Positions 15,393 to 44,812 of a DNA stretch of 64,000 nucleotides are shown here, one piece after another (positions within the stretch are counted from its first letter, which is position 1; each line of letters opens with the position of its first letter). The stretch spans positions 1 to 64,000 of the forward strand of contig JACQDB010000133.1 of the NCBI GenBank assembly GCA_016201275.1, written 5' to 3'. The notes under the pieces were generated by a model. It ran no database searches, had not been told where the DNA came from, and saw nothing but the letters and a program-made list of their open reading frames with translations. The position numbers and the translations under genes are program-made. The stretch is from Acidobacteriota bacterium (GTDB lineage: Bacteria > Acidobacteriota > Blastocatellia > UBA7656).

Positions 15393-16298
15393 TCAGCCAA
15401 GCGGCTTTTCGGCAGTAGCCACGATATAATCCAGACGGGAAGTGTGGTACCTGCGTAGATACCGAATGAGCAAAGCTCTGAGGCCGCCGGAAGTTTCGTG
15501 GCGCTCACGAAATTGTGTAAAAGGTTTTATCACTTGTTCGCGTATGGAAGATATGGAAATATTGGTGAACCCAATCTGAGATAATTTTTCTGCGTAAATA
15601 TCTCTTGAGTACATATTCAAAGAATTGACTCTTGGATCGCTCACCTTGCGTCCGGGCATCGCAATCAGGTCTGCCGTCACCAGTCGCCCTCCAGGGCGCA
15701 GGACGCGGTAGGCTTCACGGAAAAAATCTTCACGGGTCAGGAATTGAAAAGCTGCCTCGACCGAAGCCACCTTATCGAAGGCATTCGAGGAAAAAGGCAG
15801 CTTGACGGCTGAAGCCAATTGCAACTCCAGACGCTCAGACAGACCAAACTTTTCGGCTCGCTCAGAGGCGATTTCGATCACATCAGGGTTGATGTCTATG
15901 GCTGTGATACGGTCAACGCCAAAGTGCCCAATCCAGAAAAAGTCCTGTTCGGCAAGTCCGCAACCAACATCAAGGAGGCGTTCACCGCTTGAGAATTCCC
16001 CCACCTCTGCAACCAGCCTAACCAGCGCTTCTCCTGCTTCATCAACGGTCTGCGCCCCATCTTTCCAGTAGCCCATATTCATGTAGCGCGTGTAGGAGAT
16101 GGGACCGGCATTGCCGTGTTGTCTGGACTGCTCGCGGGCAACAAATTTGCGCTCGTATTCCTCTCGCGTATGTGACGCTCCCTCTGCTTTGTGCCGGGCA
16201 AATTTGCCTATCGCTGATTCTTGTCTCATGGATATTTCTCCTTCCCTTGCGCTTCTCCTGCATCGCAGATCACTTTCGCAGGATTCGCCGGTTTGCAA
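15393..16298 (-). CDS. Class I SAM-dependent methyltransferase (paralogue A)
   Basis: RLLDVGCGLAEQDFFW, KVASVEAAFQFLTREDFFREAYRVLRPGGRLVTADL. Strong similarity to the next gene. Confidence 0.88.
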   Translation of the reverse strand: MQTGESCESDLRCRRSAREGEISMRQESAIGKFARHKAEGASHTREEYERKFVAREQSRQHGNAGPISYTRYMNMGYWKDGAQTVDEAGEALVRLVAEVGEFSSGERLLDVGCGLAEQDFFWIGHFGVDRITAIDINPDVIEIASERAEKFGLSERLELQLASAVKLPFSSNAFDKVASVEAAFQFLTREDFFREAYRVLRPGGRLVTADLIAMPGRKVSDPRVNSLNMYSRDIYAEKLSQIGFTNISISSIREQVIKPFTQFRERHETSGGLRALLIRYLRRYHTSRLDYIVATAEKPLG

Positions 16299-16345: not shown

Positions 16346-17203
16346 TCAGCGAACTTCGCTTTTATCCGCCGTGACCAGCAGATAATCCAGTCGGGAAGCG
16401 AAGAACCTGTGCAGCATCACATTGATAAATCCTAGCAGGTTAAACTTGCCCAGACGGCGCAAAAGGAAATTTGAATAGGGCTTGAAGACAAAGGCTCCTA
16501 TAGAGGTGACCTGCACGTTGGTGAACCCTGCGCCCCTCAGTTTGCTCGCATAAGTTTCAGCCGGGTACGCATTGACCGGATTGATAAAGTGAGCTTTTCG
16601 ACCCGGCAGAGGAACCGCGTCGGTAGTTACCAGGCGACCGCCATTCTTCAATACACGGTAGGCTTCGTGAAAAAAATCCTCGCGGGTCATGAAATGGTGC
16701 GACGCCTCTATTGACACGACTTTATCGAAACTGGCATCCTCAAAAGGCAGGTCAACTGCCGAAGCAACCTGAAAATCAATGTGTTCATTGAGTTTTTTTT
16801 CCGCAACCCGCTTGGCGGCTCCTTCGATTTCCGCAGGGTTGATGTCTATGCCGACAATGCGCTGCGCTTGACCATGCTCCATCCAGAAAATATCTTCATC
16901 GCCATAGCCGCAACCGACATCGAGTATGCAATCGTGTTGGCTGAACTGCCCGCTCGTGGCAACCAGTTTCGCTAACGCCCGCGCCGCTTCATCCAAAGTT
17001 TGCGCGCCGTCTTTCCAGTAACCGATGTTCAGGTATTGCGTCTGATCCGTAGGATTGAAATCCTGGCGCGCGGTATGCTGATAGGTTTTGACTACCCTCT
17101 GCTCGTGAGCTTCTCTTCTTTTTCTGTAAGTGTCCGGCTTCGACTCCGCTCTTTGATTGATCGTTACAACCGAGCTTTGCGCCGTGCTTGTACCTGTTTC
17201 CAT
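16346..17203 (-). CDS. Class I SAM-dependent methyltransferase (paralogue B)
   Basis: CILDVGCGYGDEDIFW, KVVSIEASHHFMTREDFFHEAYRVLKNGGRLVTTD; shares NxGYWKDGAQTxDEA with paralogue A. Confidence 0.88.
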   Translation of the reverse strand: METGTSTAQSSVVTINQRAESKPDTYRKRREAHEQRVVKTYQHTARQDFNPTDQTQYLNIGYWKDGAQTLDEAARALAKLVATSGQFSQHDCILDVGCGYGDEDIFWMEHGQAQRIVGIDINPAEIEGAAKRVAEKKLNEHIDFQVASAVDLPFEDASFDKVVSIEASHHFMTREDFFHEAYRVLKNGGRLVTTDAVPLPGRKAHFINPVNAYPAETYASKLRGAGFTNVQVTSIGAFVFKPYSNFLLRRLGKFNLLGFINVMLHRFFASRLDYLLVTADKSEVR

Positions 17204-17328: not shown

Positions 17329-18816
17329 CTATCCGAGTTCAACGAGAGCGTGAACATTGCCTGTGACAGGGCTTCTCGCACAACGACTGTCTGTGGCGGC
17401 AACCGACATAAGCAATCCCTTGCGCGGTCGCAAAGACAATTGAAAGATGTGGTCAATGCGAAGGTTTGGCGGCACTGCCACTCGATACCGTTGCAGCAAG
17501 ATGGCAAGCACCATTTTCATTTCCAACATTGCAAACGCTGCTCCTATGCAATTGTGGCGACCTGCGCCGAAAGGAAAATATTCGTATGGCGTTGGTTTGT
17601 AGGTTTCCCATCGTTCAGGCAGAAAGCATTTTGGTCGCTCATAAATTTCAGGTAGCCGATGGGTGATGAACTGGCTGAAAGTCACCGCCGCATTTTTCGG
17701 CAACTCGTAGGCACCCATTTGACAGGGTTCAACATTGAAGCGCGTGCCGAATGGCGCTGTCGGGATCAGCCGCATACTCTCTTTGAGAACGCGATCCAGC
17801 AAGGGCAACCGACTGAGTTGTTCAATTCCCGGATTGCCACCCCGCAATTCACTGCTGAGTTCTTCTACAAGGTCTTCATAAACTTGCGGGTGTTGCGCCA
17901 GTAGAAACAACGTCCATACGAGCGTACTGGCGCTGCTTTCGTGGCAGAGCGCATTGTAGGCTTCAGCGATTAATTCGGCGCTGTCAAACCCAGTGCCTTC
18001 TTCATTGCGGGCGCTGATCATCATTGCCAGGATGTCCCGGCAGGCATCCGCATTGGGTCTTTTGCGTTCGACCAGAGCTTGCAGAAAAGCGACAATGCCA
18101 TTAGCACTTTTCATCATCTTGCGATAACTACTGCCCGGCAAATCAAAGGGCAACATAAAAGCGCGCGGGGCTGACGAAAGCATCGTTTCGATCAGTTCGT
18201 TCAGCGTTTGTATCTCGCTTTCGTCATCGAGACTGAGCACTGCCTTCATGGCTACGCGATGTACCAGGCGGCGCAAATCATCTTCGATATCGCGCACTTC
18301 ATGTAGCGACCAGGCATCAATCATCTTGTGAGTCATCGCAGCCATCATTTCCGCATAGGCTTCGACCTGCTTATGATGAAAAGCCGGAGCCATTAATTTG
18401 CGATGCTGTTTATGCTCTTCTCCATCCAGACGCAACAGTCCTGTACGCAGAGTCATCATGGCAGAGCTTTGCGCCTGATCTTTGCCCTTGCGGTCAGGCT
18501 TTACTTGAAACAGTTCAGGGTTAGCCAAAATCTTCTGATTATGTTCCGGCGCAAAAGCAAATACCCGAAATGGTCTTTGGGGATTCCAGACACTCAGCGT
18601 TCCATATTCCTGATAAAGCCTGGCGAGGTAGCTGACAGGGTCTTTTGACCATCTGAGAGCTTCGACATTCCACCCCAGAACCGGCACACCCTGAGGGCCT
18701 GGTGGCAACTCAACTGAGATGACTGGTCTTGCCATAGCAGGTACCCGTTCGGCGCTTACGCTATCATATTTCGACATATGAAACTCCTTCGCTTGCGAAG
18801 ACAAGTGCTGACACAC
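17329..18816 (-). CDS. Cytochrome P450 (copy 2)
   Basis: Haem motif FPFGAGRHNCIGAAFAMLEMK; ExxR in LKESMRLIPTAPF; homologous to the 10956-12413 P450. Confidence 0.94.
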   Translation of the reverse strand: MCQHLSSQAKEFHMSKYDSVSAERVPAMARPVISVELPPGPQGVPVLGWNVEALRWSKDPVSYLARLYQEYGTLSVWNPQRPFRVFAFAPEHNQKILANPELFQVKPDRKGKDQAQSSAMMTLRTGLLRLDGEEHKQHRKLMAPAFHHKQVEAYAEMMAAMTHKMIDAWSLHEVRDIEDDLRRLVHRVAMKAVLSLDDESEIQTLNELIETMLSSAPRAFMLPFDLPGSSYRKMMKSANGIVAFLQALVERKRPNADACRDILAMMISARNEEGTGFDSAELIAEAYNALCHESSASTLVWTLFLLAQHPQVYEDLVEELSSELRGGNPGIEQLSRLPLLDRVLKESMRLIPTAPFGTRFNVEPCQMGAYELPKNAAVTFSQFITHRLPEIYERPKCFLPERWETYKPTPYEYFPFGAGRHNCIGAAFAMLEMKMVLAILLQRYRVAVPPNLRIDHIFQLSLRPRKGLLMSVAATDSRCARSPVTGNVHALVELG

Positions 18817-18884: not shown

Positions 18885-19589
18885 TCAAGCGCGTCTTAAA
18901 GCCAGAGTCAAGCCATCGGCAACCGGCAGCAGACTGAGGACGATGCGCTCGTCGTGATGAAGTTTTTCATTGAGTTCTTTAATTGCCACAGTGCCCGGCT
19001 CTTTGATTTTCGGGTCGAGTACATCGCCTGAACGAAGCATATTATCGAGAGCAATCAAGCCGCCCGGGCGCACCAGTTGCAAGGCACGCTCGTAATAGTC
19101 CAGATAATTGACTTTATCGGCATCAATAAAAACGAAGTCGAAGGTATTGCCCTGTCCCTCTCGCAACAGGCAATCGAGCGTCTCTGTAGCCGTTCCCAGT
19201 CGCAGGTCAATCTTTTCCGTGACCCCCGCTTCGTGCCAGTACCGTCTGGCGATGCCTGTCCACTCCTCGCTGACATCACAACCCACGAGTATGCCGTCAG
19301 GGGGTAAACCGAGAGCTGTCCACAAGGCGCTATAGCCCGTAAAAACGCCCACTTCCAGAGTCTTTTTCGCGCCGATTGCCTGCACCAACAGGTTCAAAAA
19401 CTGTCCTTGTTCAGCAGGAATCAGCATCTCTGATTCAGGCATACGCGAAGTCTCTTCCCGTAGCCTACGCAAAACCTCTGGCTCGCGCAGGGAAACATCA
19501 AAAATATAATCATATAAAGCTGGGGTGATTTGGGTTCGGTTTAGCATGGTTCCTCCGCTGGTTGCCTTGCGGCAATGGTTCGCGCTCAT
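18885..19589 (-). CDS. O-methyltransferase (caffeoyl-CoA OMT-like family 3)
   Basis: TLEVGVFTGYSALWTALGLPPDGILVGCDVS, FDFVFIDADKVNYLDYYERALQLVRPGGLIALDNMLRSG. Confidence 0.9.
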   Translation of the reverse strand: MSANHCRKATSGGTMLNRTQITPALYDYIFDVSLREPEVLRRLREETSRMPESEMLIPAEQGQFLNLLVQAIGAKKTLEVGVFTGYSALWTALGLPPDGILVGCDVSEEWTGIARRYWHEAGVTEKIDLRLGTATETLDCLLREGQGNTFDFVFIDADKVNYLDYYERALQLVRPGGLIALDNMLRSGDVLDPKIKEPGTVAIKELNEKLHHDERIVLSLLPVADGLTLALRRA

Positions 19590-20626
19590 TGCCCCATTTG
19601 TTCATGGAAACTTCTGAGGCGAAGGTGTTTCACTTTATCCAAAACATCTACGGCTGCTTCGGCTTGCTCATCGTGGTTTAGCAGACTTGGCCCTTCATCT
19701 CCGACGAAATGTGAGCAGACCAATTTGTGCGATTCGTAGGTGTTCTCAAAGGCACTGACTAATCTGGTGTAGCGTTGTTGCGTCGCCGGGTCTAAATTTT
19801 TGAATACCTGTTTTTGCGTTCGCAGCAAGCGCACCAAATATTCGTGATCGCGTGCCAGCACTCCGCTCATGCCCGGCGGCACTTGCGGTGGCATCATTGT
19901 CGGACGTACAGAGGCTTCGTAAACCGTCGGTGAAAAATCTCCGGCGAAATGCAAAGCCACGCTACAGCCATCGAACAATTTCGTCGTCAAATCGAGAGCA
20001 TAAGCGCTCAGTTCCAACTCTCGCATTTTGTAAGCCTGGAAAAAGCAATTGAGTGAGGTGATGACGCATTGAATGAGAACCAGAAAGACATGATGACCGC
20101 GAAGCCAGCGCGCCAGTGGTTCGCACGCTTGCTCGTGCCGCCACAAACTCTTTTCCAGCAGTTCCTCCTCCCAAAGGCTTTCAACCTCTCTATCGCCTCT
20201 GAGGAAACGCAGTGCTGAGTCAAAGGCACCTCTCAGTTGATGCCATTGCCTGTCAGTTAAGGAACTCCTGGCGCTCGTGGTGTCTTCCACAAATTCTTCG
20301 TAAGCGCGAAGAATCGCGTGAACATAAAGATTCAGTGACGCATCTTCATGAACCCTCTTGATACGACAATATTCATCGTGTGAATCTTTATCGGCAGATG
20401 GCTTGTCCACTTGTCTGAAATCTTTGTTTTGAACAGGCACGGACAGCCCCTTCAAAGCCGCCCTGATACGCGCTAGAGTTTCCTTGCCTGAGAGTGTAGA
20501 GATTCCTGACAGGCTCTGGGTCAAAGCCTCATATATTTCTGGCGTACACTGCTTACGAATTGCATCATAGCTGTGCGGCAATGCCTCTGGTGGCAACAAT
20601 GAAAGTACTGGAGGAATATTGTTCAT
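19586..20626 (-). CDS. Uncharacterised helical protein (candidate tailoring enzyme or scaffold)
   Basis: Long intact ORF with RBS AAGGA upstream of ATG at 20626 (MNNIPPVLSLLPPEALPHSYDAIRKQ...). 4-nt overlap (ATGA) with the downstream OMT. No family recognised by eye. Confidence 0.7.
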   Translation of the reverse strand: MNNIPPVLSLLPPEALPHSYDAIRKQCTPEIYEALTQSLSGISTLSGKETLARIRAALKGLSVPVQNKDFRQVDKPSADKDSHDEYCRIKRVHEDASLNLYVHAILRAYEEFVEDTTSARSSLTDRQWHQLRGAFDSALRFLRGDREVESLWEEELLEKSLWRHEQACEPLARWLRGHHVFLVLIQCVITSLNCFFQAYKMRELELSAYALDLTTKLFDGCSVALHFAGDFSPTVYEASVRPTMMPPQVPPGMSGVLARDHEYLVRLLRTQKQVFKNLDPATQQRYTRLVSAFENTYESHKLVCSHFVGDEGPSLLNHDEQAEAAVDVLDKVKHLRLRSFHEQMGQ

Positions 20627-20771
20627 ACTAAGGGTTCCTTGCTTTGACTCTCCGGCGCTCGGTTGATGCAATTGCCTGGCTTTTGCCCGCCTAAGGGAGC
20701 GCCGAAAAGTTGTTTTTGTGTGAACCTTTTCAGGGGTTTCCGATGTTGAAGATACGCCTCACCGCTTTGTG

Positions 20772-22558: not shown

Positions 22559-24376
22559 ATGCCAGCTCCTGTTAAGCACATTTTCCTGTTCGGTCCCTTC
22601 CACTTAGATATAAGAGAGCGTCTGTTGTTACGCGATGGTGAGATTGTCTCTCTTACTCGAAAAGCCTTTGAAACCCTGGCGCTACTCGTTCAAAACAGCG
22701 GTCACGTTCTTCAAAAAGAAGAGATGATGAATATCATCTGGCCGGATAGTTTTGTTGAAGAAGCAACCCTTGCCCAAAATGTTTTCACGCTGAGAAGAGT
22801 GCTTGGCGAAAGTCCGATGCAGACTCAATACATTGAGACCGTGCCAAGGCTAGGGTATCGTTTCATTGCTAAAGTCAGCCAGCTACAATCCGATTATCCT
22901 GTAGAGACAGACAGACAAAATGGTACCTCCCCAACGGCAATCAAATCCATCGCCATTCTTCCTTTCAAAACCCTGACGGTTGAAAGCGACAGCGAATATT
23001 TCGGTCTGGGCATGGCAGATGCCCTCATCACCAGACTAAGCAATGTCAAAAATATTATGGTTCGTCCTACCAGCGCGATTCTGAAATATCACAGGCAAGA
23101 ACAGGAGCTTTTTACCGTCGGGCACGAGTTGAAAGTTGAGTTGGTAATGGATGGCATCATCCAGCAAATGGATGACAGGATTCGCATCACCGTGCAATTG
23201 GTCAATGTAGAAACAGGGGCTCCGTTATGGGCTGACAAGTTTGACGAAAAATTCAGCGATGTCTTCACGGTGCAGGACATCATATCCGAAAAAGTCATCG
23301 AAGCCCTGACGCTAAAATTGACCAGCAGTCAAAAAATGCTGTTGACCAAACGCCACACAAAAAATTCCGAAGCCTATCGCTATTACCTCAAGGGCCACTA
23401 TCTGTGGAGCAAATGGACGGAAGATGGTTTTAAGAAAAGTATAGCGGCCTTTGAGCAGGCGATTAAACTAGAGCCGGACTATGCACTGGCTTATGCGGGC
23501 ATGGCGGATACCTATATTTCACTGGGTTTTTACGGTTATCTGTCTCCTTCCAAGGCGATGCCGCAGGCGAAATTACTTGCCAGAAAAGCTTTACTATTGG
23601 ACGATCAATTGGCGGAGGCGCGCTTGTCGCTGGCAGCCGCCTTATTCTTTTATGATTGGGACTGGGCTGGTGCTGAGGAAGAATTTAAGCGATGCATTGA
23701 AGCCAACCCAAGTTATGCGATTGCCCATCAATCGTATGGGCTGTATTTGATTGCCATGAAGCGATTCGAAGAAGCCTCAGCCGTGTTGCATCAAGCTGCC
23801 GAAGCCGACCCGATTTCTCCTCTTATTAAAACAACGGCCGGTTTCCCTTATTATTATTCAGGGCAACCTGACATCGCTATCAAACATTATCGCGAGACGC
23901 TCGAAGAGGAACCCTATTTCGGGCTTGCCCATCTGGCGCTGGCAGACGTCTATATTCAGAAAATGATGTACGAAGAAGCCATTCATCATTATAAAGAAGC
24001 GATGGCTATCTGGGGCGAAAAACAGGCATTGCCCTATCTCGGTTACGTATATGCTTTATCCAATAAACGCGACGAGGCGCTCCGTATATTGAAAAAACTG
24101 GAGCAGATGTCGGCGCAGGAACACATTTCGCCACTGGCAATGGCAATGGTATATATCGGTCTCGGCGACAACGATGCTACCTTCGAGTGGCTTGAAAAAG
24201 CCTACCATGAAAGATCGAATAAGCTCGTCTTTCTGGGCGTTCAACCGCTCTACGACAGCATACGCACAACTGCGCCCTTCACCAGCCTGTTAAAACGGAT
24301 TGGACTTAACCCCGCGATTGTCGCTCTGTGTTTAATAAAGGAAGTGTTGTTGTGGCAAGCCAATTTGGTTTTCTAG
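22559..24376 (+). CDS. OmpR/CadC-type winged-HTH transcriptional regulator with TPR repeats
   Basis: LTRKAFETLALLVQNSGHVLQKEEMMNIIWPDSFVEEATLAQNVFTLRRVLGE...YIETVPRLGYRFIAKV (wHTH), adenylate-cyclase-like middle segment, then TPRs (AIAAFEQAIKLEPDYALAYAGMADTY). Confidence 0.9.
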   Translation: MPAPVKHIFLFGPFHLDIRERLLLRDGEIVSLTRKAFETLALLVQNSGHVLQKEEMMNIIWPDSFVEEATLAQNVFTLRRVLGESPMQTQYIETVPRLGYRFIAKVSQLQSDYPVETDRQNGTSPTAIKSIAILPFKTLTVESDSEYFGLGMADALITRLSNVKNIMVRPTSAILKYHRQEQELFTVGHELKVELVMDGIIQQMDDRIRITVQLVNVETGAPLWADKFDEKFSDVFTVQDIISEKVIEALTLKLTSSQKMLLTKRHTKNSEAYRYYLKGHYLWSKWTEDGFKKSIAAFEQAIKLEPDYALAYAGMADTYISLGFYGYLSPSKAMPQAKLLARKALLLDDQLAEARLSLAAALFFYDWDWAGAEEEFKRCIEANPSYAIAHQSYGLYLIAMKRFEEASAVLHQAAEADPISPLIKTTAGFPYYYSGQPDIAIKHYRETLEEEPYFGLAHLALADVYIQKMMYEEAIHHYKEAMAIWGEKQALPYLGYVYALSNKRDEALRILKKLEQMSAQEHISPLAMAMVYIGLGDNDATFEWLEKAYHERSNKLVFLGVQPLYDSIRTTAPFTSLLKRIGLNPAIVALCLIKEVLLWQANLVF

Positions 24377-25186
24377 CTCGTTGAGGTCTTCTGACAGGGC
24401 TTTGAGCACCAGCGCTTCGTCGCTGTGGATGAAGAAATGTGTCCCTCGAAACAGGTGCATAGCGAAGCGCCCCGTTGTCTCCTTTCGCCAAGCTTCCAGA
24501 TATTCATATTTCACGTTACGATCATCAATACCGCCATAAACGGTGAGCCCGCAATTTAGCGGCGATTCGCTTTCATAAGAGTAGGTTTCGCAAATTGCAC
24601 AGTCGGCTCTGAGCGTCGGCAGCATCAACTTGAAAAACTCCATATTGTCCAACATAGGCGTGCTTGCGCCAACCACTTGTCTCAACTTACTGGCAAACTC
24701 TTCCTCGGGTAAATCGTGCAGACGCGGAAGTCCGGGCGTGATTTGAGGCGCGCCACAGGCTGAAATGAATAACTGGATTGGCTCCAAACCAAAGGCTCGG
24801 CGCAGATGCCTGGACAATTCAAAGCTGACGAGTCCTCCCAGGCTGTGCCCCCAAAATGCCATGGGCTTATCAGCATAAGGCAAAAGCATACGTCCCAAAC
24901 TCTCTACCAGTGGTGGCAAACGGACAAACGGTTTTTCTCTCAAGCGATGCTCACGACCGGGTGGGTGTACCAAAACCAATTCCACACAGGCTGGCAGGCT
25001 GGCAGGCCATTTGTAGAAAATGTTGGCTCCGCTCCCTGCATATGGCAGACAAAACAGTCGCAGTTTCGCCAACGGATTCGGTAGCGGAAAGCTGAACCAG
25101 GAAGCGCTCAAGGGCTGATCGAGAGTATATGAATTTTGCACGGCTGATCCTTTCATGAGACACCAATCACAAAGAGTGTGATTCAA
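24332..25186 (-). CDS. Type II thioesterase (GrsT/SrfAD-like)
   Basis: LRLFCLPYAGSGANIFYKW, VLVHPPGREHRLREKPF, MAFWGHSLGGLVSFELSRHL; C-terminal GTHFFIH. Confidence 0.93.
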   Translation of the reverse strand: MNHTLCDWCLMKGSAVQNSYTLDQPLSASWFSFPLPNPLAKLRLFCLPYAGSGANIFYKWPASLPACVELVLVHPPGREHRLREKPFVRLPPLVESLGRMLLPYADKPMAFWGHSLGGLVSFELSRHLRRAFGLEPIQLFISACGAPQITPGLPRLHDLPEEEFASKLRQVVGASTPMLDNMEFFKLMLPTLRADCAICETYSYESESPLNCGLTVYGGIDDRNVKYEYLEAWRKETTGRFAMHLFRGTHFFIHSDEALVLKALSEDLNELENQIGLPQQHFLY

Positions 25187-26631
25187 TCACTCAGTGGTGG
25201 CAGATTGCCTATGCGACAGTTGAGGTCTGCCGCAACCGTTTCAATCAACCTCTCATATTGGGCTGCCAGCTCTACTACGTTGTCGCTCAACGAGGCGCTG
25301 CCCAATACGATTCTGCCCTCGAATCTTTCGCCATTTTGCCGCATGAGAGCTGTCAAATCAGCGGCGGGTAAATTTTGCTCTATATTTTTGCTGGTAACCT
25401 TCAAACCACCGAATTCGAATTCTTCGTCTAACGGTTCTTCCATAATGAACATCAGGTTAGGAGTGGAAAGCGCCGCCTGACCTGAGGCCTTCGCCACTTC
25501 CTTCACAACCCATTCATAAGGCAATTCCTGATGCTCTAAGGCTGCTAACACTTCTTTTTTTACGTTTGCCAGAATATCTGCAAAACTTGGATTGCCACTT
25601 AAATTCAGTCGAATCAGCACGGTGTTTGATAGCGGCCCGATTAAATCTTCCAACTCTGAGCGCTCTCGATTTGCTACCACTGTAGCCACTGTAATCTCTT
25701 GCTGCCCTCTGTGCCGACCGATGAGCGCTTGCCATCCGGCAAGAAGAATCATATAAGGGGTTATTGCCTGATGGCGAATCACTTGCCTGATGCGCTGGCT
25801 CACTGGCTCGCTCAATTTCACTTCGCAAGCTAATGCGTCTGATTTTCCGTCAGCCCGTCCTGTTTTATCAGCAGCAAAAGGCAATGAGGGCGACTCGTCT
25901 AGCAGTTTTTCTTGCCAGAAGGCAATCTCTCGGTGGAATTCTCCGCTTTGCAGCCTGGACCTTTGCCAGTAGGCAAAATCGCTGTACTGGATCGCCAATT
26001 CAGGCAGTCGGGGGAGGGCACCCTGAAGGTAAGTTTTATATAATTGCCCCAGTTCGTTGACCAGAATTTTTCTTGACTGGGCATCGCAGATCATCTTGTG
26101 CATCGTCAGCATCAACAATTGGGCGTTCGGCCTGAGAACGATGATTGCCCCACTTATTAATGGCGGTTGCTCCAAATTGAAAGCTCTGTGGGCTTGTTCG
26201 TGTGCCAGCAATCGCCATCTGGCTTCTTGTTCCGGTGCCGACAGATGGCTGAGATCAACGACCGACAAATCGAGTTTGACCTGTAAACAAAGGTCTTGGC
26301 ACAGTTCTCCGTCTATTTCCACGAATCGGGTACGCAGGATTTCGTGCCGCCTTGCCACTTCGTTGAATGCCTCAAGCAGTGCAGCAGCATTCAACTGTCC
26401 TAGCACTTCAAGCAGGATTACTTCGTTACTTGCCACAGACGACAGGCCGTACCGCCATTCATACCAGAGTCGCTCCTGAACCGCCGATAACGGGCAAAGT
26501 TTAGAGAGGTCTCTTCGCGCAATGGTGCATAGGGGAGGCAATTCAATACCTCTGTCCTTCAACAGCAATTCAAATAGTTGTTGCTTCTTTTTTGAAGCAA
26601 CCTGAGGTGTATTCTTAAATTGTTCGTTCAT
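25183..26631 (-). CDS. Free-standing NRPS condensation-domain-like protein with degenerate catalytic motif
   Basis: Likely start MNEQFKNTPQ at 26631 (the ORF upstream of this overlaps the previous gene). CPLSAVQERLWYEWR (C1-like); LLMLTMHKMICDAQSRKIL where HHxxxDG is expected; later YSDFAYWQR, ELPYEWVV and NLMFIMEE C-domain motifs. Confidence 0.88.
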   Translation of the reverse strand: MNEQFKNTPQVASKKKQQLFELLLKDRGIELPPLCTIARRDLSKLCPLSAVQERLWYEWRYGLSSVASNEVILLEVLGQLNAAALLEAFNEVARRHEILRTRFVEIDGELCQDLCLQVKLDLSVVDLSHLSAPEQEARWRLLAHEQAHRAFNLEQPPLISGAIIVLRPNAQLLMLTMHKMICDAQSRKILVNELGQLYKTYLQGALPRLPELAIQYSDFAYWQRSRLQSGEFHREIAFWQEKLLDESPSLPFAADKTGRADGKSDALACEVKLSEPVSQRIRQVIRHQAITPYMILLAGWQALIGRHRGQQEITVATVVANRERSELEDLIGPLSNTVLIRLNLSGNPSFADILANVKKEVLAALEHQELPYEWVVKEVAKASGQAALSTPNLMFIMEEPLDEEFEFGGLKVTSKNIEQNLPAADLTALMRQNGERFEGRIVLGSASLSDNVVELAAQYERLIETVAADLNCRIGNLPPLSD

Positions 26632-26719: not shown

Positions 26720-29700
26720 TCATATTTGCCAACGCGCCTGGTTCTGCACCAGAAACTTGTCAACATCTTCATCCGCCGATTCTTCAACCTGCATAAATGT
26801 CCAGGCAATCTCTTCAACGATGTCGCGCCCACCCCAGATTTCCGACATGATGTTGATGAGGCCTGAAACCGTAGGGGTTTCGAACATACTGCGCACCGGC
26901 AGTTCGACACGGAAGATTTCACGCAAGCGCAAGATGATTCTGCTGGCAAGCAGCGAATGGCCTCCCAGACTGAAGAAATTGCTGTTGATTCCCACTTTAT
27001 TGAGGTCCAACACTTCCATCCATATTTTCGCCACCAGTTCCTCGGCAGGCGTTTGTGCAGGAATCAAGTCATCGGTTTGGCTGGCGTTGGGTTGGTTACT
27101 CATCGTCAACGCCGCGCGGTCTATTTTCCCATTGGTTGTGAGTGGTAACTTTTCCATAATGATAAACTCAGCCGGCACCATATAATCGGGGAGCCTTTGT
27201 TTGAGATAATGATAAAATTCATCGGCGCTGACTTGCTGTTTTCGATCTGCGGCTACGTAAGCGAGGAGATATTTGTTACCGAGCGATTCTTCTCTGCTGA
27301 CCACAACGGCTTCGCGAACGGCAGGGTGCTGAGCCAGCATAGATTCGATTTCGCCCAACTCTATGCGAAAGCCTCTGACTTTTACTTGATGGTCGGCGCG
27401 ACCGAAAAAATTGATGTTGCCATCATCCAGATAACAAACCAGATCGCCCGTCTTATACAAGCGCTCGCCGGGGCGCTCGCTAAATGGGTTTGGTAGGAAT
27501 CGTTCGGCTGTCAAATCGGCACGCCCAAGGTATCCGCGCCCCAGTCCTGTGCCGCTGATGTAGAGTTCACCAATCGCTCCTATTGGCAATGGATTCAGGT
27601 GACGTTCCAGAATATACATCTGCGTATTGGCTATCGGTTTGCCAATCGGCGGACGGGCTGGCCACTCCCTACAGGCAGCATCGAGAGAAAACGAGGTGAC
27701 CACATGGCTTTCTGACGGTCCGTAATCGTTATGCAGGCAACTGTGTTTGACAGACTCAAAGAATTTCACCATAGGTCTAGTAATTTGCAGTTGTTCGCCG
27801 GTAGTGGTCACTTCCGCGAGGCTGGTAAAATCCTGCTTGCAAAAGCTTTGTTCTTCGGCAAGTTGCTGAAGAACAACCACCGGCAGGATGGCTTTCTCGA
27901 TGCGGTTTTCGGCAAGATAGGACGCTAAACCAGGGATGTCGACGCGGTATCCTTCAGGAAGTATGAACAGCGTTCCGCCCGAGGTCAGCGCGGCAAAAAT
28001 CTCGTAGAAACTAACATCAAAACCCATTGACGCAAACTGTAGGGTTCTGGCTTTGGTCAAACGATTTGCGCTGTGCCAGGCAATCAGGTTGGTCAAAGTA
28101 CGATGCGGCACGCCAACCCCTTTGGGTCTGCCTGTCGAACCGGATGTGTAAATCACATAAGCGAGATTTTCGGCGGCGGCGCTACAGACAGGGTTGCGGC
28201 TGTCTTGCGCTTCTATCAACTCTCTTTCGCAATCAAGGCGGACGATAGTCGCTGCGCTCTCCGGCAACCGCTCCGCCAATTTACTATCGGTCAGCAAAAC
28301 CAGAGGACTTGCATCGTCAAGGATGAAAGCCAGCCGGTCGTAAGGGTACGCCAGGTCTAGCGGCAAGCAGACGCCACCGGCTTTGAAAATGGCAAGCACG
28401 CTGATGACCATCTGCAAAGACCTTTCCAGGCAAAGACCCACCAACGCTTCCGGACCGACTTCGAGTTGGCGCAAATATTGGGCTAGCTGATTGGCACGGG
28501 TGTTTAATTCTCTATAACTAATCTGCTCATCTTCATAGACGATGGCAACCCCATCGGGCGTCTTCTCTGCCTGCTCTTCAAAAAATCTGTGCAGCCTCTC
28601 ACCGTTGTCGTAGTGGACGTTGGTCGTGTTCCATTCGCCTAAGATGATTTGTTGATCAGATGGTGAAAGCAGCGGCAAATTGCCTATGCGTTGCTCAGGA
28701 GCAACCATTGCCGATGCCAGCAAAGTTTTGAAAGCATCCGTCATTCGCTGTATGGCGGGTTTATCAAACAGGTCTGCGTTATACTCGAATCTGCCGTCGA
28801 AGCCGCCTTCTTTCTCTTTCAACACCAACATCAAGTCGTATTTCGCGGTTCCCGTATTGATTTTCTCTTCCGTCACCGTCAACCCGCTCAACTCGACCGT
28901 TGCGTTCAAACCTTCTTCCATGACGAACATGACTTCTGTGAGAGGGTTACGGTTTACATCGCGCTCGTTGACCAACTCGGCAACGAGCTTTTCAAAGGGC
29001 AACTCCTGATGTTGATAAGCGCCAATGGCGGTGTCTTTTATTCTGGCAAGCATTTCTGCAAAGCTCGGATTGCCGCGCAAGTCGCCCTTCATCAACAGCG
29101 TGTTCACCATCAAGCCTACCGTGCCAGCAAACTCAGCGCGGGTGCGGTTGGCGACAATCGTGCCGACGATTACCTCATCTTGCCCGCCGTATCGTCCCAA
29201 CAAAACTTGCCAACTCGCCAGCAAAATCATAAACGGCGTTACCCCTTTTTCGCGCCCTAATTTTCTAATCCTGTCTCCGCAATCTTGATCCAGCGTAAAC
29301 GTGTAGGTGTCACCTCTGTAGGTCTGTACAGGCTGCCTCATCTGGTTTGTAGGAATCTCAAGAACCGACGGCGTAGAAGACAACTGCGCTCTCCAATACG
29401 CCAATTCATGATCGAGGGCGCCTTTGTCAAAGCGTTCCCTCTGCCATAAGGCAAAGTCTGAATATTGCAACTCCGGCTCCGGCAAAGCCACTGGCTGGTT
29501 ATGACAATAGCCTTCATACAACAGGCTCAATTCTCTGGTTAGAATCTCTTTCGACCAGCCATCGCAAATGATGTGATGGAGAATGAGTACCAACCAATGT
29601 TCCCGCGCGGCAAGGGCGATAAGTCCGACTCTCAGAAGCGGAAGTCTGGTAAGCTGAAATGGCTGAAGCCACTGCTGAATCTGTTGAGCGGCCTGCTGAC

Positions 29701-30181
29701 GTTTTTCGGTTTCCGGCAGCAGGCGCAAATCCACAGTGACCATGTTCACAGCCAGTTGCGGTGAGATGATTTGATAAGGCTGCCCCTGAATGATTTCAAA
29801 AGAGGTTCGCAAAGCCTGGTGGCGACGCACCAACTCTTGCAACGCTTGCTGCAACGCCGAAACATTCAAGGCTCCCGAAAGTCTCAGGGCAATGGCTTCA
29901 TTGTATAGCGGACTGTCGGGGACAAGCTGATCCATAAACCACAAGCGCTCTTGTGCAGGCGAAAGAGGGTATCGGCAAATTCCCGCCGATGGCAAGCGAA
30001 CCAGTTCGCTTGCCGGCTGACGCTCCAGCACAGCAAGAATTTCCTCTTTATGCCTGATGATCTCGTTGCGTAAAGCTTCTGTTATCGTCCCTTCAGGAGC
30101 GCGATAGCGCAGCCGGTTCCCCGCCGCCCAGACCTCTACGCCGAGACTTTGCAGAGTCGTCAAAAATCCCGCAGCCATCAT
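26720..30181 (-). CDS. NRPS: N-terminal TubC-like docking domain - C - A - PCP
   Basis: HHIICDGWS (C3), YVIYTSGSTGRPKGV (A3), NDYGPSESH (A5), YKTGDL (A7), NGKIDR (A10), LGGHSLLA (PCP). MMAAGFLTTLQSLGVEVWAAGNRLRYRAPEG is TubC-like. Confidence 0.95.
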   Translation of the reverse strand: MMAAGFLTTLQSLGVEVWAAGNRLRYRAPEGTITEALRNEIIRHKEEILAVLERQPASELVRLPSAGICRYPLSPAQERLWFMDQLVPDSPLYNEAIALRLSGALNVSALQQALQELVRRHQALRTSFEIIQGQPYQIISPQLAVNMVTVDLRLLPETEKRQQAAQQIQQWLQPFQLTRLPLLRVGLIALAAREHWLVLILHHIICDGWSKEILTRELSLLYEGYCHNQPVALPEPELQYSDFALWQRERFDKGALDHELAYWRAQLSSTPSVLEIPTNQMRQPVQTYRGDTYTFTLDQDCGDRIRKLGREKGVTPFMILLASWQVLLGRYGGQDEVIVGTIVANRTRAEFAGTVGLMVNTLLMKGDLRGNPSFAEMLARIKDTAIGAYQHQELPFEKLVAELVNERDVNRNPLTEVMFVMEEGLNATVELSGLTVTEEKINTGTAKYDLMLVLKEKEGGFDGRFEYNADLFDKPAIQRMTDAFKTLLASAMVAPEQRIGNLPLLSPSDQQIILGEWNTTNVHYDNGERLHRFFEEQAEKTPDGVAIVYEDEQISYRELNTRANQLAQYLRQLEVGPEALVGLCLERSLQMVISVLAIFKAGGVCLPLDLAYPYDRLAFILDDASPLVLLTDSKLAERLPESAATIVRLDCERELIEAQDSRNPVCSAAAENLAYVIYTSGSTGRPKGVGVPHRTLTNLIAWHSANRLTKARTLQFASMGFDVSFYEIFAALTSGGTLFILPEGYRVDIPGLASYLAENRIEKAILPVVVLQQLAEEQSFCKQDFTSLAEVTTTGEQLQITRPMVKFFESVKHSCLHNDYGPSESHVVTSFSLDAACREWPARPPIGKPIANTQMYILERHLNPLPIGAIGELYISGTGLGRGYLGRADLTAERFLPNPFSERPGERLYKTGDLVCYLDDGNINFFGRADHQVKVRGFRIELGEIESMLAQHPAVREAVVVSREESLGNKYLLAYVAADRKQQVSADEFYHYLKQRLPDYMVPAEFIIMEKLPLTTNGKIDRAALTMSNQPNASQTDDLIPAQTPAEELVAKIWMEVLDLNKVGINSNFFSLGGHSLLASRIILRLREIFRVELPVRSMFETPTVSGLINIMSEIWGGRDIVEEIAWTFMQVEESADEDVDKFLVQNQARWQI

Positions 30182-33100
30182 AGTTCGCCCTCCTCGCAAC
30201 CTCTGCTGTGTGCTGCCTTGCGATAACCGCGCATGGTGTCCAGGTCATCAACCCGACAAGCTTGCGACTCTAGCTCTCGTAAAGCGTTCGCCAAACCTCT
30301 GGGCGTCGGATGGGCATAAAATTTTTCTATGCCCGGTCGAAGCTGAAACTCTTTTTCGATAAGCGCGGCTATGCGGATGAGATCAACGGAATTTCCTCCC
30401 AATTCCACTATATCCTGGTCGGGTGCGATGGATTCAAGCTGAAGCACCTCAGCGATCAGCGCGGCGATTTTCGCTTCGAGAAATTCCTCTGCCTGTCGCC
30501 TATCGGTCAGTTGTCCGGCGGTTGATTTGGCAAGCTGCGGCAACTGCTTTCTGTCAAGCTTGCCATTGGCGTTTAGCGGCAAGCTGTCTAAGGTGAAAAA
30601 CGCTGACGGAACCATATAGGCGGGCAGCCTCTCTTTTAAGTATTGCCGCAGTTCATCAGCCGTTACCATCTTGTCCGGGTGGGTTGCCACGTAAGCAACC
30701 AGGCGCTTGCGTTCCCTTTGACCTTCTGGCAAAACCGCATTGGCGCAAATCGCTGGGTGCTTGCCGAGTGCGGCTTCAATCTCGCCCAACTCGATTCGAT
30801 ACCCTTGAACCTTGACCTGTGAATCTTCGCGCCCCAGAAATTCAATATTGCCATCCGGCAGATAGCGACCCAAATCACCGGTTTTGTACAAACGCTCGCC
30901 GCTGCGAGGGTGAATAAGGAAAGAGGCTTTCGTTTGTTTTTCATCGCGCCAATATCCTACTGCTAACCCTTTGCCGCTGATGTAGAGATTGCCCGCCACC
31001 CATATCGGACGCGGCTCGAGCGCTTCATTCAGGACGTGAAACCCTTGATTAGCCATTGGACGACCATAGGGAATGCTTGGAAAATCGGCGCAATCTCGGT
31101 CAATCGCATAGAGGATAGACCAGATGGAGGCTTCCGTTGCGCCACCCAGGCTGATGATTTCAGCTTGGGGGGCAAGTTTTTTGATACGTTCGGGAAGCGT
31201 CACAGGAATCCAATCGCCGCTCAACATCACCAGGCGCAAGGACGCCAGTTGAGTCTCCAGTCGTTGGTCTGCATAGGTGACCAGCATATCCATCAACGCC
31301 GGAACCGAATTCCAGATGGTGATGGCTTGCCGTTGAATCAAATCTGCCCAGCACTCAGGATTGCGCGTCGCCGAATCGGCGGGCATGACGATGGTGCCTC
31401 CAGCAGAGAGAGTGCCGAAAATATCGTAAACCGATAAATCGAATCCCAGATTCGAGAGCGCCAGAACCTTGTCGCCAGGGCGCACATCAAAACGACGATT
31501 GATATCGTCTATGGTATTGACCGCCCCGCTATGAGGAATCATTACTCCTTTGGGCAAACCCGTCGAGCCGGATGTGTAAATAACATAAGCCAGATCATCG
31601 GGCTGTTGCACAGACTCTATAGGCGCTGAATGGAGTGTGCCCAGTCGTTGGCTATCAACCGACAGGCGCGCTATGCCATCGGGCCATTCGAGTCGTTCGT
31701 TGATCCACGATTGTGTCAGCACTATGGAAATTTCGGCGTGACCGAGCAGATGCCAAAGACGTTCTTTCGGCAGGTTGGGGTCTATGGGCAGATAGGCGGC
31801 ACCTGCTTGCAATATGCCCAGAGTGGCGGCGACCTGTTCCCAACCCTTCTCCATAACCACCGCGACCAAAGTGTTAGGGCAGGCTCCCATCTGTCTGAGT
31901 TGATGCCCGAGGTGATTTGCCAGGTGAGCCAACTCTTCATATGTAAGAGTTCCGTTAGCCGCTATCACGGCAGCTTGCGAAGGGCGTTGGTCAGCCTGTT
32001 GCTGAAACTGTGTATGTAGCAGAGTCGGCAGCAGAGCTACTTTGGTTTCGTTGACTTCCTGTCGTTGCTGGAGTTGAGCCGCCGGCAGAAGGTTGATTAC
32101 ACTTTCGCGCCAGATGCTGGGTTCTTCACCCAAACGTTGCAATAGCGCACAGTAGGAGTCGAACAAATCTTGCAGCAGGTTTTCAGGGAAAATGCCTTCG
32201 ACCGCATCCCAGTTGAAAACCAGCGCCCCATTCTCTTCAAGCACTTGATGATCGAGCCACACTTGCGGCGTTTGAGAGATGCCGTAAACGACTTCGCCCA
32301 TCCATAAGGTCTGCTCGGCAACCGAGGTCTTCAAATGTTGCGATAGCAAACTGGTAAACACGATGGGCATGGTAGTTCCGGGGGCTTTGCCTTGAACGCG
32401 CCCGATATCGCGGAGGATTTGCACACCACTGACGTAACGGTGTTCCATATCTTCAAGAAGTTGAGCTTGAATAGCTGCGGCTCTGGTCTGGAAAGAGCTG
32501 GATGCGGAATGGTCAACCGCAAGTGGAATCAAAGTGGTGAAATCGCCGACAATTTCATTGACCTGCGGGTGCAACGGAAAGCGATTGTGCAAAGTCACAT
32601 TGATGGTGAAGCGGTTGCTTTTACTCCACAGCGCAAGGATTTCGGCAAAAGCCGCCAGTAAGATTCCTGACGGGGTGACCCCGCTTTCCACAGCAAGCCT
32701 TTTGATTTGCCTCCAGGGTTTTGGATCCAGCCGCCCGCTGCGCCGCTTAAAGCGGGGATTTTTTAACGTGGTGTAATTCGCAGCGAGCGGCAATTCGGGG
32801 GCAGGTGGTAAGTCTGGCAGGCGATTTGTCCAGTATTGTTGAGCGGCGCTGTAAAGTTCCGACTGCCGCAACTGGGCTTCGCCAAGCACGTAGTCGCGGA
32901 AAGAGAGTTCCACAGCCGGGAGTTTGGTGGTCGGATGATTGTATAACTCAGCCCATTCGTGAAAGAGGATTTGCAGACTCCAAACATCCACTATGAGGAT
33001 GTCGAAGCTAAAATGCAGTCGCCAGCACTGGTCATCCAGTTGCGAAGCGCGAATCTCAAACAGAGGCCAACGGTCAGAAGGCAGAACTTGATGTGACAGG

Positions 33101-33627
33101 CGGTGACGAATCGAATCCAGAAAGGCGTTGGCGGTTTGGGCATCATAGCCGCGCAAATCGAGGGTCTCGATTTCGTAGGGCGGCACTTGATTGAGAATCT
33201 GCTGTCTGCCATCGGCGAGGACGATGGCGCGCAGCATATCGTGGCGCTCAATCAGTTGTTGCAAAGCCAGGTTAAACCTTGCCAAATCAAGCTCTTTGGC
33301 TTCGACTTCATAGTAAGCATGACAAGCCACATTGCCGAATTCAAAAGCGCCGCTTCGCCCTACCCAGTAGGCCTGCTGCATATCCGTCAAAGGGAAAGGC
33401 TCGTATCGGTGTGCCGTATCGGGAGTGATTTGCGGAATCGGGTTGGCAGATGCAGCGTCACTTTGTCCTCTAAGCAAGTCTAAAAGGTCGCCTTTGCTGG
33501 CGATTAATTTGGCTTGTAGTTCCGGGGTCAGAACACCTTTGGGAGCGCGGACGCGCAAGTGTTGACCATCGCCCCACAATTCCACTTTTTGTTTGATAAG
33601 GTCAGCAAGAAGTTCTGTCGCCATCAT
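30178..33627 (-). CDS. NRPS: TubC-like docking - heterocyclisation (Cy) - A (Cys-type code) - PCP
   Basis: FPLTDMQQAYWVGR and FSFDILIVDVWSL (DxxxxDxxS Cy motif); YVIYTSGSTGLPKGV; FDLSVYDIF, IWNSVPAL, VMLSGDW, LGGATEASIWS giving approximate code DLYNMSLIW; ELGGNSVD PCP. Confidence 0.95.
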   Translation of the reverse strand: MMATELLADLIKQKVELWGDGQHLRVRAPKGVLTPELQAKLIASKGDLLDLLRGQSDAASANPIPQITPDTAHRYEPFPLTDMQQAYWVGRSGAFEFGNVACHAYYEVEAKELDLARFNLALQQLIERHDMLRAIVLADGRQQILNQVPPYEIETLDLRGYDAQTANAFLDSIRHRLSHQVLPSDRWPLFEIRASQLDDQCWRLHFSFDILIVDVWSLQILFHEWAELYNHPTTKLPAVELSFRDYVLGEAQLRQSELYSAAQQYWTNRLPDLPPAPELPLAANYTTLKNPRFKRRSGRLDPKPWRQIKRLAVESGVTPSGILLAAFAEILALWSKSNRFTINVTLHNRFPLHPQVNEIVGDFTTLIPLAVDHSASSSFQTRAAAIQAQLLEDMEHRYVSGVQILRDIGRVQGKAPGTTMPIVFTSLLSQHLKTSVAEQTLWMGEVVYGISQTPQVWLDHQVLEENGALVFNWDAVEGIFPENLLQDLFDSYCALLQRLGEEPSIWRESVINLLPAAQLQQRQEVNETKVALLPTLLHTQFQQQADQRPSQAAVIAANGTLTYEELAHLANHLGHQLRQMGACPNTLVAVVMEKGWEQVAATLGILQAGAAYLPIDPNLPKERLWHLLGHAEISIVLTQSWINERLEWPDGIARLSVDSQRLGTLHSAPIESVQQPDDLAYVIYTSGSTGLPKGVMIPHSGAVNTIDDINRRFDVRPGDKVLALSNLGFDLSVYDIFGTLSAGGTIVMPADSATRNPECWADLIQRQAITIWNSVPALMDMLVTYADQRLETQLASLRLVMLSGDWIPVTLPERIKKLAPQAEIISLGGATEASIWSILYAIDRDCADFPSIPYGRPMANQGFHVLNEALEPRPIWVAGNLYISGKGLAVGYWRDEKQTKASFLIHPRSGERLYKTGDLGRYLPDGNIEFLGREDSQVKVQGYRIELGEIEAALGKHPAICANAVLPEGQRERKRLVAYVATHPDKMVTADELRQYLKERLPAYMVPSAFFTLDSLPLNANGKLDRKQLPQLAKSTAGQLTDRRQAEEFLEAKIAALIAEVLQLESIAPDQDIVELGGNSVDLIRIAALIEKEFQLRPGIEKFYAHPTPRGLANALRELESQACRVDDLDTMRGYRKAAHSRGCEEGEL

Positions 33628-36600
33628 AAGCTGAATTCCTCCCATTGTCGCCCAGCAACCGCCGTTGTAGGGGGCAAGTGGTGTTCGGTTAGATGAGCGG
33701 CACCGGGCAATTGCTCAAGCGCATAGGCTATCAATCGCGTAATGCTGGTGCCTTTCAAAATGCGAAGGATGGGAATGGTGATTCCTAAATCGGTTTCCAA
33801 ACGGGTCTTGACTTCCAAAGCCATCAGAGAATCCAACCCGAACCGATTGATAGGCAGGTCGGCGTCGAGTCTGTGGACACCGAGTTTGCCAAACCCTAGC
33901 ACGCGGATCAACAATCGGTTTAAATACTCCTGCAATAACTTTTTACGCTCAGGCTCCAGCGCCGCAAGCAATGCCTCGCGGGTCAAAGCAGCTTCTGCGC
34001 TCTCTTTGGCAGGCTCAGGCTGGTGGCGGGCAGAGACAATCTCGCTGAAAAAGGCCGCACGACGCGAACCTGCAAGGCTGTGGCTCCACGGCTCAAGATT
34101 AAAGTTTACTACGGCAATTTGTGGCCTAGAGGCATTGAGCAAACGCTCAAAGACCGTGACTCCTTCCAGAGGCGTCATGCTGTTGATGCCTTTTTGCGCC
34201 AGTCGTTGGCTGCGCTTGCCTTCTGCTGCAAGACCGACTTCTGCCCAGGGCCCCCAGTCAATGCTTATGGCTGGAAGCCCTTGTGACTTTCTATAATGCG
34301 CCAGACAATCCAAAAATGTATTCGCTGCCGTGTAATTCCCTTGCCCTGCCGATCCCAGCAAAGTCGCAGCCGAAGAGAACAAAACGAAGAAATCAAGCGA
34401 CGCATCCAAGGTCAGGGTGTGCAAATTCCAAGCTCCGGCAATCTTCGGAGCCATCACCTTGAGAAACCTTGAGCGTTGCTGTTGCAGCAAAATTCCATCA
34501 TCAAGCAAACCTGCGGCGTGCACCACACCTCTGAGCGGCGGCATTTGTTGCTCGATCTGAGTCAATATTTGGGCGATTTCCTGATGCTTGCTGACGTCTG
34601 CTTTGACAACCCTTACATCGGCACTCTGGCGCATCGCTTCAACAGCTTCTTGCGCCGCCGCCGAGCCTGCGCTACGCGACAACAACACCAGATGTTGCGC
34701 GCCGCGCTCAATCATCCATTTAGCAATCACTAAGCCCAAGCCGCCGAGTCCGCCGGTTATCAAATATGTGCCGTTGCTGTTTAACTTTATTTCCTGCGTA
34801 AGCGCAGGCGCTATCTGAACCTTTTCTCCGCCTACCCTGAGAGCGATTTTGCCGATGTGGCTGGCCTGCGCCATCGTCCGAAAGCCCTCAGCAGCTTCAG
34901 CGATGGAGAAGATTTGAAGGGGGTATGGGCTTCCGCCTTGTTGTTCGAAGCAACTGATAGCCTGACGCAGAAGGAAGCCCATTTGGGAGGGGTTCTGGCG
35001 GATTAAGGAGGCAAGATCAACTGCAAAAAATGCCAAATTATTTTGAAAAGGTTGCAGACCCAGCTTGGCGTTTTGATAGATGTCGCGCCGACCAAGCTCA
35101 ATGAACCGCCCGCCTGTTCTCAGTAGCGAAAGCCCCGCAGGGATGGCCTCGCCGGCAAGCGAGTTCAAAATCATGTCGAGGCCGACACCATCTGTCGCCT
35201 GTTTGATTTCTTCCACAAAATCGAGCGATCTGGAATCAAAAACATGATGGATGCCGAGAGCTTTCAAATAGTCACGCTTTTGTTGACTACCGGCTGTAGC
35301 AAAGATCTCCGCTCCCTGCTGTTGAGCCATTCGTATGGCAGCCAGACCTACGCCTCCTGTGGCTGAGTGAATGAGCAAGCGCTCGCCGCTTTGCAGTCTG
35401 CCAATATGATGCAGAGAATAATAAGCCGTCAGCAAGGTCAGCGGAATGGTCGCCGCTTGTTCAAAGCTCAGGTGCTGAGGCTTGTGCAATGCCAAACAGG
35501 CAAGCATTTTTGCATAGGCGCCAAAGCACGGATGAGCAATGCCGTAAACTTCATCGCCAATCGAAAAGCCTTCAATGCCTTCGCCAATGGCTACCACTTT
35601 ACCCGAACACTCCCACCCGAAATCTTCTTTGACCTCCGGCGCAGAGGGTAAAACTCCCATACTCAACATTACGTCTCTGAAGTTAAGACCAAGCGCTTGA
35701 ACCTCTATCTCCAACTCTCCCTGAGCCGGTTGCTGACGAAGGGTTTGCCTCAAAACCAGGCTATCGAGTAAGCCTGGTGTGGTGACTTCCAGCCTGAACG
35801 CCTGCCCTTTACCGGCGGTCTCTTTTTCGTAGGCTGGCGAATCACAGAGGCTGTGAGGGAGCAATCTGGCGACGTAGCGAGTTTCACCGCGCAGCGCAAT
35901 CTGCTCGGCTTCGTCGTCCGCCAGCAGTTCATCGCCAAGCAAAGTCATTTCCGCTTCACCCTTGTCGCCAAGGTCTATAAGCGAACAACGCAAATCTGCA
36001 AATTCCTGAGCGATGACGCTGCCCAGTCCCCACAAAGGCGATTGTGCAACGGACAGAGATTCCTCACCGGTAATGGATTGTGCAGCGTTGGTAACCAGCC
36101 ACAGTCGCGGCGCTTTACCTAGAGGGCGTGCCGCCAGCCTTTGTACCAACAGCAGCGTACTGCCCCAACCCATTTCGTGACAGGCTTCGGGCAACTCTTT
36201 CGGAAGATGCGCCGTCGTCGGGACATCAAGGCTCCACAAGTGGACAATGCCGCGACAGGTTTGTGAGCGCGATTGCAAACAGTCGTCAAAAAGTCGCTCA
36301 TAATCTTCGCAAGACTGTGCCTGAATCCGGTAGTGTTTTGGCCCGATTCGGGCGTACTGTTCACCCGCCGAAACGGTGATGCAATCTTCGCCGATTGCTT
36401 CAAGGCGCTTGATAAGCTTTTGCCCTGTGCCGCCCTGGTCTGCAAAAATCACCCACGTTCCAGAGTTTTCCTGCCTAAGGGGAGGCGCTTTGAGAGGCTC
36501 AGTCACTTGCCATTGGATTGTGTAAAGCAGTTGCTCAAGCCGTTTGCTATCTTCCAAGCCTTGGGCTTTCGGAGTCAGTGGCTTTATGGACAAGCCTTTG

Positions 36601-44591: not shown

Positions 44592-44812
44592 TGACAAGCG
44601 CTTTCGCACGGGGCTTTATGCTTGCGCCCGCCTTCGCCGCTTATCAGATTATTTTTCAAAGATCATAAAATGCCCCTGACGGGGCAAAACAGAGTCAAGC
44701 GATTTTCTAACCTCTCATCTGCGTAACATCAGTTACTTCAACCTCTGAACTGGATATTGAAAATGGCACCTGCTTCACAAATAATTCCTTTCTAAAGCAA
44801 TGGCATCAGCAA

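Follow-up and report, generated by a model that had tools for sequence, protein, structure and literature searches.

A stand-alone condensation-fold protein with lysine in place of the catalytic histidine in an acidobacterial PKS-NRPS operon, possibly a non-condensing partner of the preceding module

A stretch of 64,000 nucleotides from an Acidobacteriota genome (positions 1 to 64,000 of contig JACQDB010000133.1, here called the window) encodes a stand-alone condensation-type protein, referred to below as Csa, in which the second histidine of the HHxxxDG motif is replaced by lysine (HKMICDA). As the best explanation we tentatively favour that Csa is a detached C domain of the LCL type, maintained as a non-condensing partner that would act in trans on the PCP of the preceding NRPS, N2. 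We count as established for Csa the altered motif, the predicted fold, the sister relation to the C domain of N2, the linker anatomy and the absence of stops. Against this explanation stand a long branch, a codon score below that of every other operon gene and changes of conserved residues away from the active site, all of which also fit relaxed constraint.

Results

The gene for Csa belongs to a minus-strand PKS-NRPS operon with the gene order NusG-like protein, PKS, N1 (Cy-A(Cys)-PCP), N2 (C-A-PCP), Csa and type II thioesterase (TE), and an SfmD-type methyltyrosine cassette sits downstream of these genes. The features are as follows.

40476-41045 (-): NusG-family protein at the operon head (Pfam NusG; homologue at the same place in genome G001)
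33624-40187 (-): PKS with KS-AT-DH-ER-KR-ACP (Pfam)
30178-33645 (-): N1, TubC_N-Cy(DILIVD)-A-PCP, A code DLYNMSLIWK for Cys (Pfam, motif, code)
26720-30199 (-): N2, TubC_N-C(HHIICDG)-A-PCP (Pfam; C domain sister of Csa in trees)
25183-26631 (-): Csa, stand-alone condensation-fold protein of 482 aa with HKMICDA (ORF, Pfam, AlphaFold2)
26470-26472 (-): R54 of Csa in the C1 motif (QERLW), Arg in 48/56 alignment rows
26080-26100 (-): altered catalytic motif of Csa, H178-K179-M-I-C-D183-A184 (codons and alignment)
24332-25156 (-): type II TE (best PDB match RifR, E 8e-37; 46% homologue after a Cys module in genome G166)
22559-24376 (+): transcriptional regulator with TPR repeats, converging on the operon (Pfam; 50% homologue beside the G001 sister cluster)
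19586-20671 (-): SfmD-like 3-methyl-L-tyrosine peroxygenase/hydroxylase (PDB 6vdp, E 1.7e-35)
18885-19589 (-): catechol-type O-methyltransferase (Pfam Methyltransf_3)
17329-18816 (-): cytochrome P450 a (Pfam p450; nearest PDB CYP120)
16346-17203 (-): SAM methyltransferase 1 (Pfam)
15393-16298 (-): SAM methyltransferase 2 (Pfam)
13713-15200 (-): B12-binding radical SAM protein (Pfam B12-binding and Radical_SAM)
12502-13677 (-): S-adenosylmethionine synthetase, MetK (TIGR01034)
10956-12413 (-): cytochrome P450 b (Pfam p450; PDB matches)

The initial annotation had placed Csa at the end of the line, behind a final NRPS without a TE. For the NRPS part this stands, as no TE or reductase domain is found in cis in N2 (Pfam), but a separate type II TE gene follows Csa directly, with its ATG 27 nt past the Csa stop. 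Judged from the Cy motif and the cysteine code of N1, the product of the line would most likely contain a thiazoline.

The ATG of Csa is at 26631 and opens a frame of 482 codons without a stop, which encodes a short N-terminal helix and a single C fold (ORF, Pfam). Pfam Condensation (PF00668) spans residues 46-469 (E 4.6e-67) and places the protein in the superfamily. Residues 178-184 are encoded by CAC AAG ATG ATC TGC GAT GCC, where the neighbouring C domain of N2 reads HHIICDG. The lysine codon AAG is at least two base changes away from a histidine codon (CAC/CAT), and a single sequencing error is therefore an unlikely origin of Lys179. ORF, Pfam, codons and alignment thus confirm what had been read at the outset, namely a stand-alone C-type protein whose second, catalytic histidine has become lysine.

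We aligned 56 C-type domains from the Csa genome and related genomes, 47 of them canonical. The second histidine is invariant (100%) in the canonical rows and is missing only in Csa, in a HELVADA domain encoded on contig C31 of the same genome, and in two Cy domains. The change from glycine to alanine in the motif is unremarkable, as alanine is present in several canonical rows; at this position it also occurs in 36% of a clade of stand-alone C domains (PMC13142362). The remaining C motifs had been described as intact. This applies to 44 of the 58 columns conserved at 90% or more, including R95, R100, D183, W222 and R322, but not to the conserved positions R258, G266, G316, R383, Y443, D446, L447 and F448, which are changed. 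Among the 121 columns conserved at 80% or more, Csa deviates in 47, compared with 2 to 32 in the canonical rows. An acceptor-channel arginine is typical of LCL domains (PMC8097023), and R54 of Csa would be this residue if, as we assume, R2577 corresponds to the same column.

The motif sets Csa apart from catalytic LCL domains, since the HHxxxDG with its second histidine is gone, whereas the LCL ancestry and the C1 arginine are present. It likewise has no DxxxxD (HKMICD) as in Cy domains and groups apart from those of N1 and G001. As to the extent to which such a motif may still support catalysis, an H-to-Q mutant of the fuscachelin LCL domain retains ~1% activity (PMC8097023), but streptothricin ORF18 functions with HQxxxDM in place of HHxxxDG, and the second histidine is dispensable in some C domains (PMC11546977). 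By comparison with these cases, ordinary condensation by Csa appears unlikely, and we infer that it has been lost. Because the second histidine is not essential in every C domain, residual catalysis is possible.

A rather unlikely alternative to a non-condensing partner is an active release or transfer enzyme, which would join the chain on the N2 PCP to a soluble amine or alcohol or close a ring, with a motif suited to a small acceptor. The lack of a TE or reductase domain in N2 is in line with this proposal, and terminal or stand-alone C domains that release chains with free amines are known, such as glidonin C13 with putrescine (PMC10587159) and OaaC with small amines (PMC13142362). The activity of ORF18 with HQxxxDM (PMC11546977) and the retention of D183, S186, R95, R100 and R322 in Csa also speak for it. 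However, we found no precedent for lysine at the position of the second histidine, glidonin C13 requires this histidine (PMC10587159), the stand-alone FAA clade has it in >99% (PMC13142362), and many conserved residues outside the motif of Csa are changed. In fungal CT domains the histidine of HxxxDxxS is the second of HH; Csa retains D183 and S186 and has lysine instead of this histidine. From the FAA-type stand-alone C domains (OaaC clade) it is separated by the lysine and its LCL ancestry. Furthermore, a type II TE follows Csa, and in the distant genome G166 the line ends with a homologue of N1 (56%), directly behind which, with no C domain between, comes a homologue of this TE (46%), so that release without Csa is possible.

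By sequence, fold and tree, Csa is closest to LCL domains. It is the sister of the N2 C domain in the tree (SH-aLRT 97), a pair that received 99/94 (bootstrap/SH-aLRT, bootstrap not settled) when long rows were removed. The terminal branch of Csa (2.17) is longer than that of the N2 C domain (0.90) and is the second-longest of the tree with long rows removed. The N-terminal helix KKKQQLFELLLKDRGIEL corresponds to the linker that opens new subunits behind a PCP tail in other NRPSs of the class. Csa starts 88 nt past the N2 stop, an anatomy also seen in other C-first subunits after a PCP tail (rows L062, L075 and L070), and its C-terminal end lies at the point where an A domain would begin. On the strength of the sister relation, the LCL type and the kept N-terminal linker, Csa is best read as a detached C domain, the putative remnant of a third module (C-A-PCP) that followed N2 and was otherwise lost. 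The frame of Csa is open upstream through the end of N2, and a frameshift fusion of both proteins was therefore considered; it was not adopted because the stretch between them encodes nothing conserved and the ATG of Csa (26631) fits the usual anatomy of a subunit start.

A sister cluster in G001, a genome of the same family, encodes homologues of NusG (48% identity), PKS (51%), N1 (52%) and, on the far side, the regulator (50%). Between N1 and the regulator there is one ORF of 181 aa (L054, G001:C51:50659-51201), which consists of a PCP that lacks the phosphopantetheine serine (GGGAD instead of GGHSL), a tail and the linker VKRRRLVELLLEKTGITL, and then stops. Its tail GGREIVDEIAWTFMQV is almost the same as that of N2 (GGRDIVEEIAWTFMQV); both have the rare pattern GGR.IV.EIAWTFMQV and differ from the other tails of the class. 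At this place in G001, which is equivalent to that of N2 and Csa, the C-A part of N2 is gone, and no C domain is found between N1 and the regulator. Together with the arrangement in G166, this shows the line to be conserved except for its end, the section of N2 and Csa, which varies.

Orthologues of Csa were found neither in relatives, the class, the phylum and two other phylum groups (147, 162, 396, 2 and 149 genomes, partly overlapping) nor on plasmids, and a contig scan returned only Streptacidiphilus C domains with 29-31% identity. Full-length matches did not exceed 37% identity, the 37% match being the N2 C domain of the same genome. Under neutral drift, 0.067 nonsense changes per missense change are expected for the codons of Csa. 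For 145 missense changes, a low figure for its own branch that is about half of the 310 differences from the N2 C domain, this amounts to ~10 stops, and for 455, the number based on the excess branch length, to ~30. The frame holds none, and Csa has therefore probably been maintained for long. Its codon-position GC pattern is that of a real gene, and its codon-usage score of 0.697 is the lowest of the operon (others 0.71-0.78). The absence of stops, the gene-like GC and the confident model, on the one hand, and the changed conserved residues and lowest codon score, on the other hand, suggest that Csa was under selection for most of its history, with demands that would have been relaxed in comparison to a condensing domain.

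These data also bear on whether Csa, as a leftover of the lost module, is dead, with a frame still open by chance or through a recent loss of function and on its way out as in G001, an explanation that we regard as doubtful. It would agree with the G001 locus, where the C-A part of N2, the serine of the PCP and the C domain are all missing, with the weakest codon score of the operon, with a branch longer than all but one in the tree with long rows removed, with the number of departures from the columns conserved at 80% or more, and with the missing orthologues in the genomes searched. On the other hand, a pseudogene would show stops or frameshifts within the domain, and the frame of Csa is full length; 482 codons without a stop where ~10-30 are expected could be reconciled only with a recent loss of function, and the gene-like codon-position GC and the confidently predicted fold likewise argue against a relic.

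The AlphaFold2 model of Csa has a mean pLDDT of 86 and matches solved C domains with TM 0.69-0.79 (by query length). Ordinary C domains lead the structural matches, with X domains in seventh, ninth and eleventh place (4tx2 and 6m7l within the first 11). The initial annotation had proposed that Csa may recruit the two P450s of the locus, as the X domain of glycopeptide NRPSs does, and had suggested alignment and phylogeny with C, Cy, X and other domains as a check. X domains, too, descend from LCL domains, have a degenerate motif and are what remains of an additional module that was lost (PMC8949500), so that such a platform at the N2 PCP would share their path of origin; two P450s are indeed encoded in the operon. 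Nevertheless, we consider it very improbable. Ordinary C domains rank first for Csa by sequence as well as by structure. The tree comprised other C-type domains, and affinity to X domains was judged by regression from PDB scores, with the N2 C domain as reference; scores against X sequences were not raised once scaled in this way (residual z 0.53 for 4tx2 and 1.27 for 6m7l; ordinary domains and the EpoB Cy domain reach 1.5-1.8). The tree thus resolved Csa as LCL, sister to the N2 C domain and apart from Cy, and its scaled scores against the two X domains lay within the spread of ordinary domains.

Csa also has HKMICDA rather than the HRxxxDD of X domains, and it is a free-standing gene product followed by a separate type II TE rather than a domain in cis between the last PCP and a TE. 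P450s that X domains recruit are reported to carry a PRDD motif (PMC8949500); neither P450 a nor P450 b has it or a close variant of it. Among PDB chains, the nearest to both are of the CYP120/CYP51/lutein type, along with P450s from plants or animals, and no Oxy chain is among their best 60 matches. Their closest homologues (46% and 45%) stand beside homologues of the same methyltransferases in an SfmD-type cluster of genome G100, in which all C domains have HH. The P450s are therefore to be grouped with the tyrosine cassette and not with Csa, and the proposed P450 recruitment was not borne out.

Discussion

The initial suggestion of a non-condensing or unusual release role is reasonable in its general form, since the histidine is lost, the fold is kept and no TE is present in cis; its P450 part is not supported. 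For the preferred explanation, that of a non-condensing protein acting in trans on the N2 PCP, the following course may be envisaged. A third NRPS module would have followed N2, its C domain having arisen together with that of N2 by duplication inside the cluster. The A and PCP domains of this module would then have been lost, leaving the C domain detached as Csa, which would have lost the catalytic histidine and part of the conserved frame and been kept under selection as a folded protein. In the present state Csa may bind the loaded N2 PCP in the manner of a C domain that opens the following subunit, and it may gate the finished chain or hand it over, for example to the type II TE or a tailoring enzyme. 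The gating or hand-over role and the choice of partner are a guess. The boldest interpretation, which we consider improbable, is a new type of trans factor, in which the lysine at the position of the catalytic histidine would assist release or Csa would serve on the last PCP as a docking platform for a tailoring enzyme such as the B12 radical SAM protein, the SfmD-like peroxygenase or a P450.

Csa resembles LCL domains, namely the N2 C domain and the solved relatives of teixobactin Txo1/Txo2, in the C1 arginine, RHExLRT, the motif aspartate and R322. It differs from them by the lysine, the lack of attached A and PCP domains, and the loss of the C-terminal YNxDLF element and several conserved arginines and glycines. 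Interface (I) domains of siderophore NRPSs also have the C fold, but their task is to recruit a tailoring enzyme and not to condense. They are set beside Csa here by description, and in contrast to their systems no aspartate hydroxylase was seen in the operon; the I domain is listed as a bacterial C subtype (PMC10212144). X domains are likewise LCL-derived and degenerate (HRxxxDD) and are thought to be the remnant of an extra module (PMC8949500), whereas Csa is free-standing and not part of a PCP-X-TE arrangement, and the P450s belong to another type and lack PRDD. Glidonin C13, OaaC and streptothricin ORF18 act at the chain end or as separate proteins, some with altered motifs (HQxxxDM, (D/H)HxxxDS). 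However, they keep or need the second histidine or have glutamine there, whereas Csa has lysine and is of LCL and not starter-type ancestry. The fourth-best PDB match of Csa is HtmB2-CT (8z0q, deposited as 'special condensation domain'), a terminal C-type domain without HH (TRPWGIFDGWS), which in contrast to Csa sits in a larger NRPS and lacks both histidines. A special kinship is not indicated because the N2 C domain matches HtmB2-CT even better.

Few C domains are known that have lost condensation and gained other jobs (X, I and terminal release), and the domain is usually fused in line. In the case of Csa, detachment, loss of the histidine and disappearance of the other domains of the module can be traced, with the sister C domain next door and G001 in another state of loss. 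If Csa works, it would be a minimal, separately expressible degenerate C domain.

The HELVADA domain represents a second, separate loss of the catalytic histidine in the genome of Csa (G000). It was considered as kin of Csa and does not group with it in trees. This C domain, with glutamate for the second histidine, is part of a C-A-PCP-R NRPS in a PKS-NRPS cluster on contig C31 (L044:18632 to L045:3185), and the NRPS adjoins a tryptophan halogenase (L044:17040-18608) and a lantibiotic-dehydratase-like protein (L045:3104-5845). The cluster resembles clusters with PEARL enzymes (PMC11212132).

The cassette downstream of the operon deserves mention in its own right. In saframycin-type pathways, 3-hydroxy-5-methyl-O-methyltyrosine is the product of SfmD and its methyltransferases. 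In the window this saframycin-type tyrosine cassette accompanies another kind of line, a PKS-NRPS of thiazoline type in which no reductase domain is present. The SfmD-like protein has no Pfam or NCBIfam match. Its presence led us to consider a Pictet-Spengler role as in SfmC, which is not supported, N2 being without a reductase domain. With regard to the A domain that would activate the modified tyrosine, the code of N2 (DVYITTDVVK) matched none of the codes in the SfmD-type cluster of G100. The latter (G100:C6; L057, L058 and L095) combines a NusG-like head and a different NRPS-PKS with the same tyrosine cassette (COMT 65%, two methyltransferases 53% and 45% identity) and at least four P450s. 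The B12 radical SAM protein shows a weak likeness to P-methyltransferase and hopanoid methylase families, and C-methylation of an unreactive carbon in the product is a possible function. In P450 b, the heme loop reads FGGPKHHCFG, with proline in place of the usual glycine of FxxGxxxCxG. Directly upstream of the operon (43140-50702), a Tn5-type transposase, a TraG-like coupling protein and a phage-type integrase mark a mobile-element region at the edge of the cluster.
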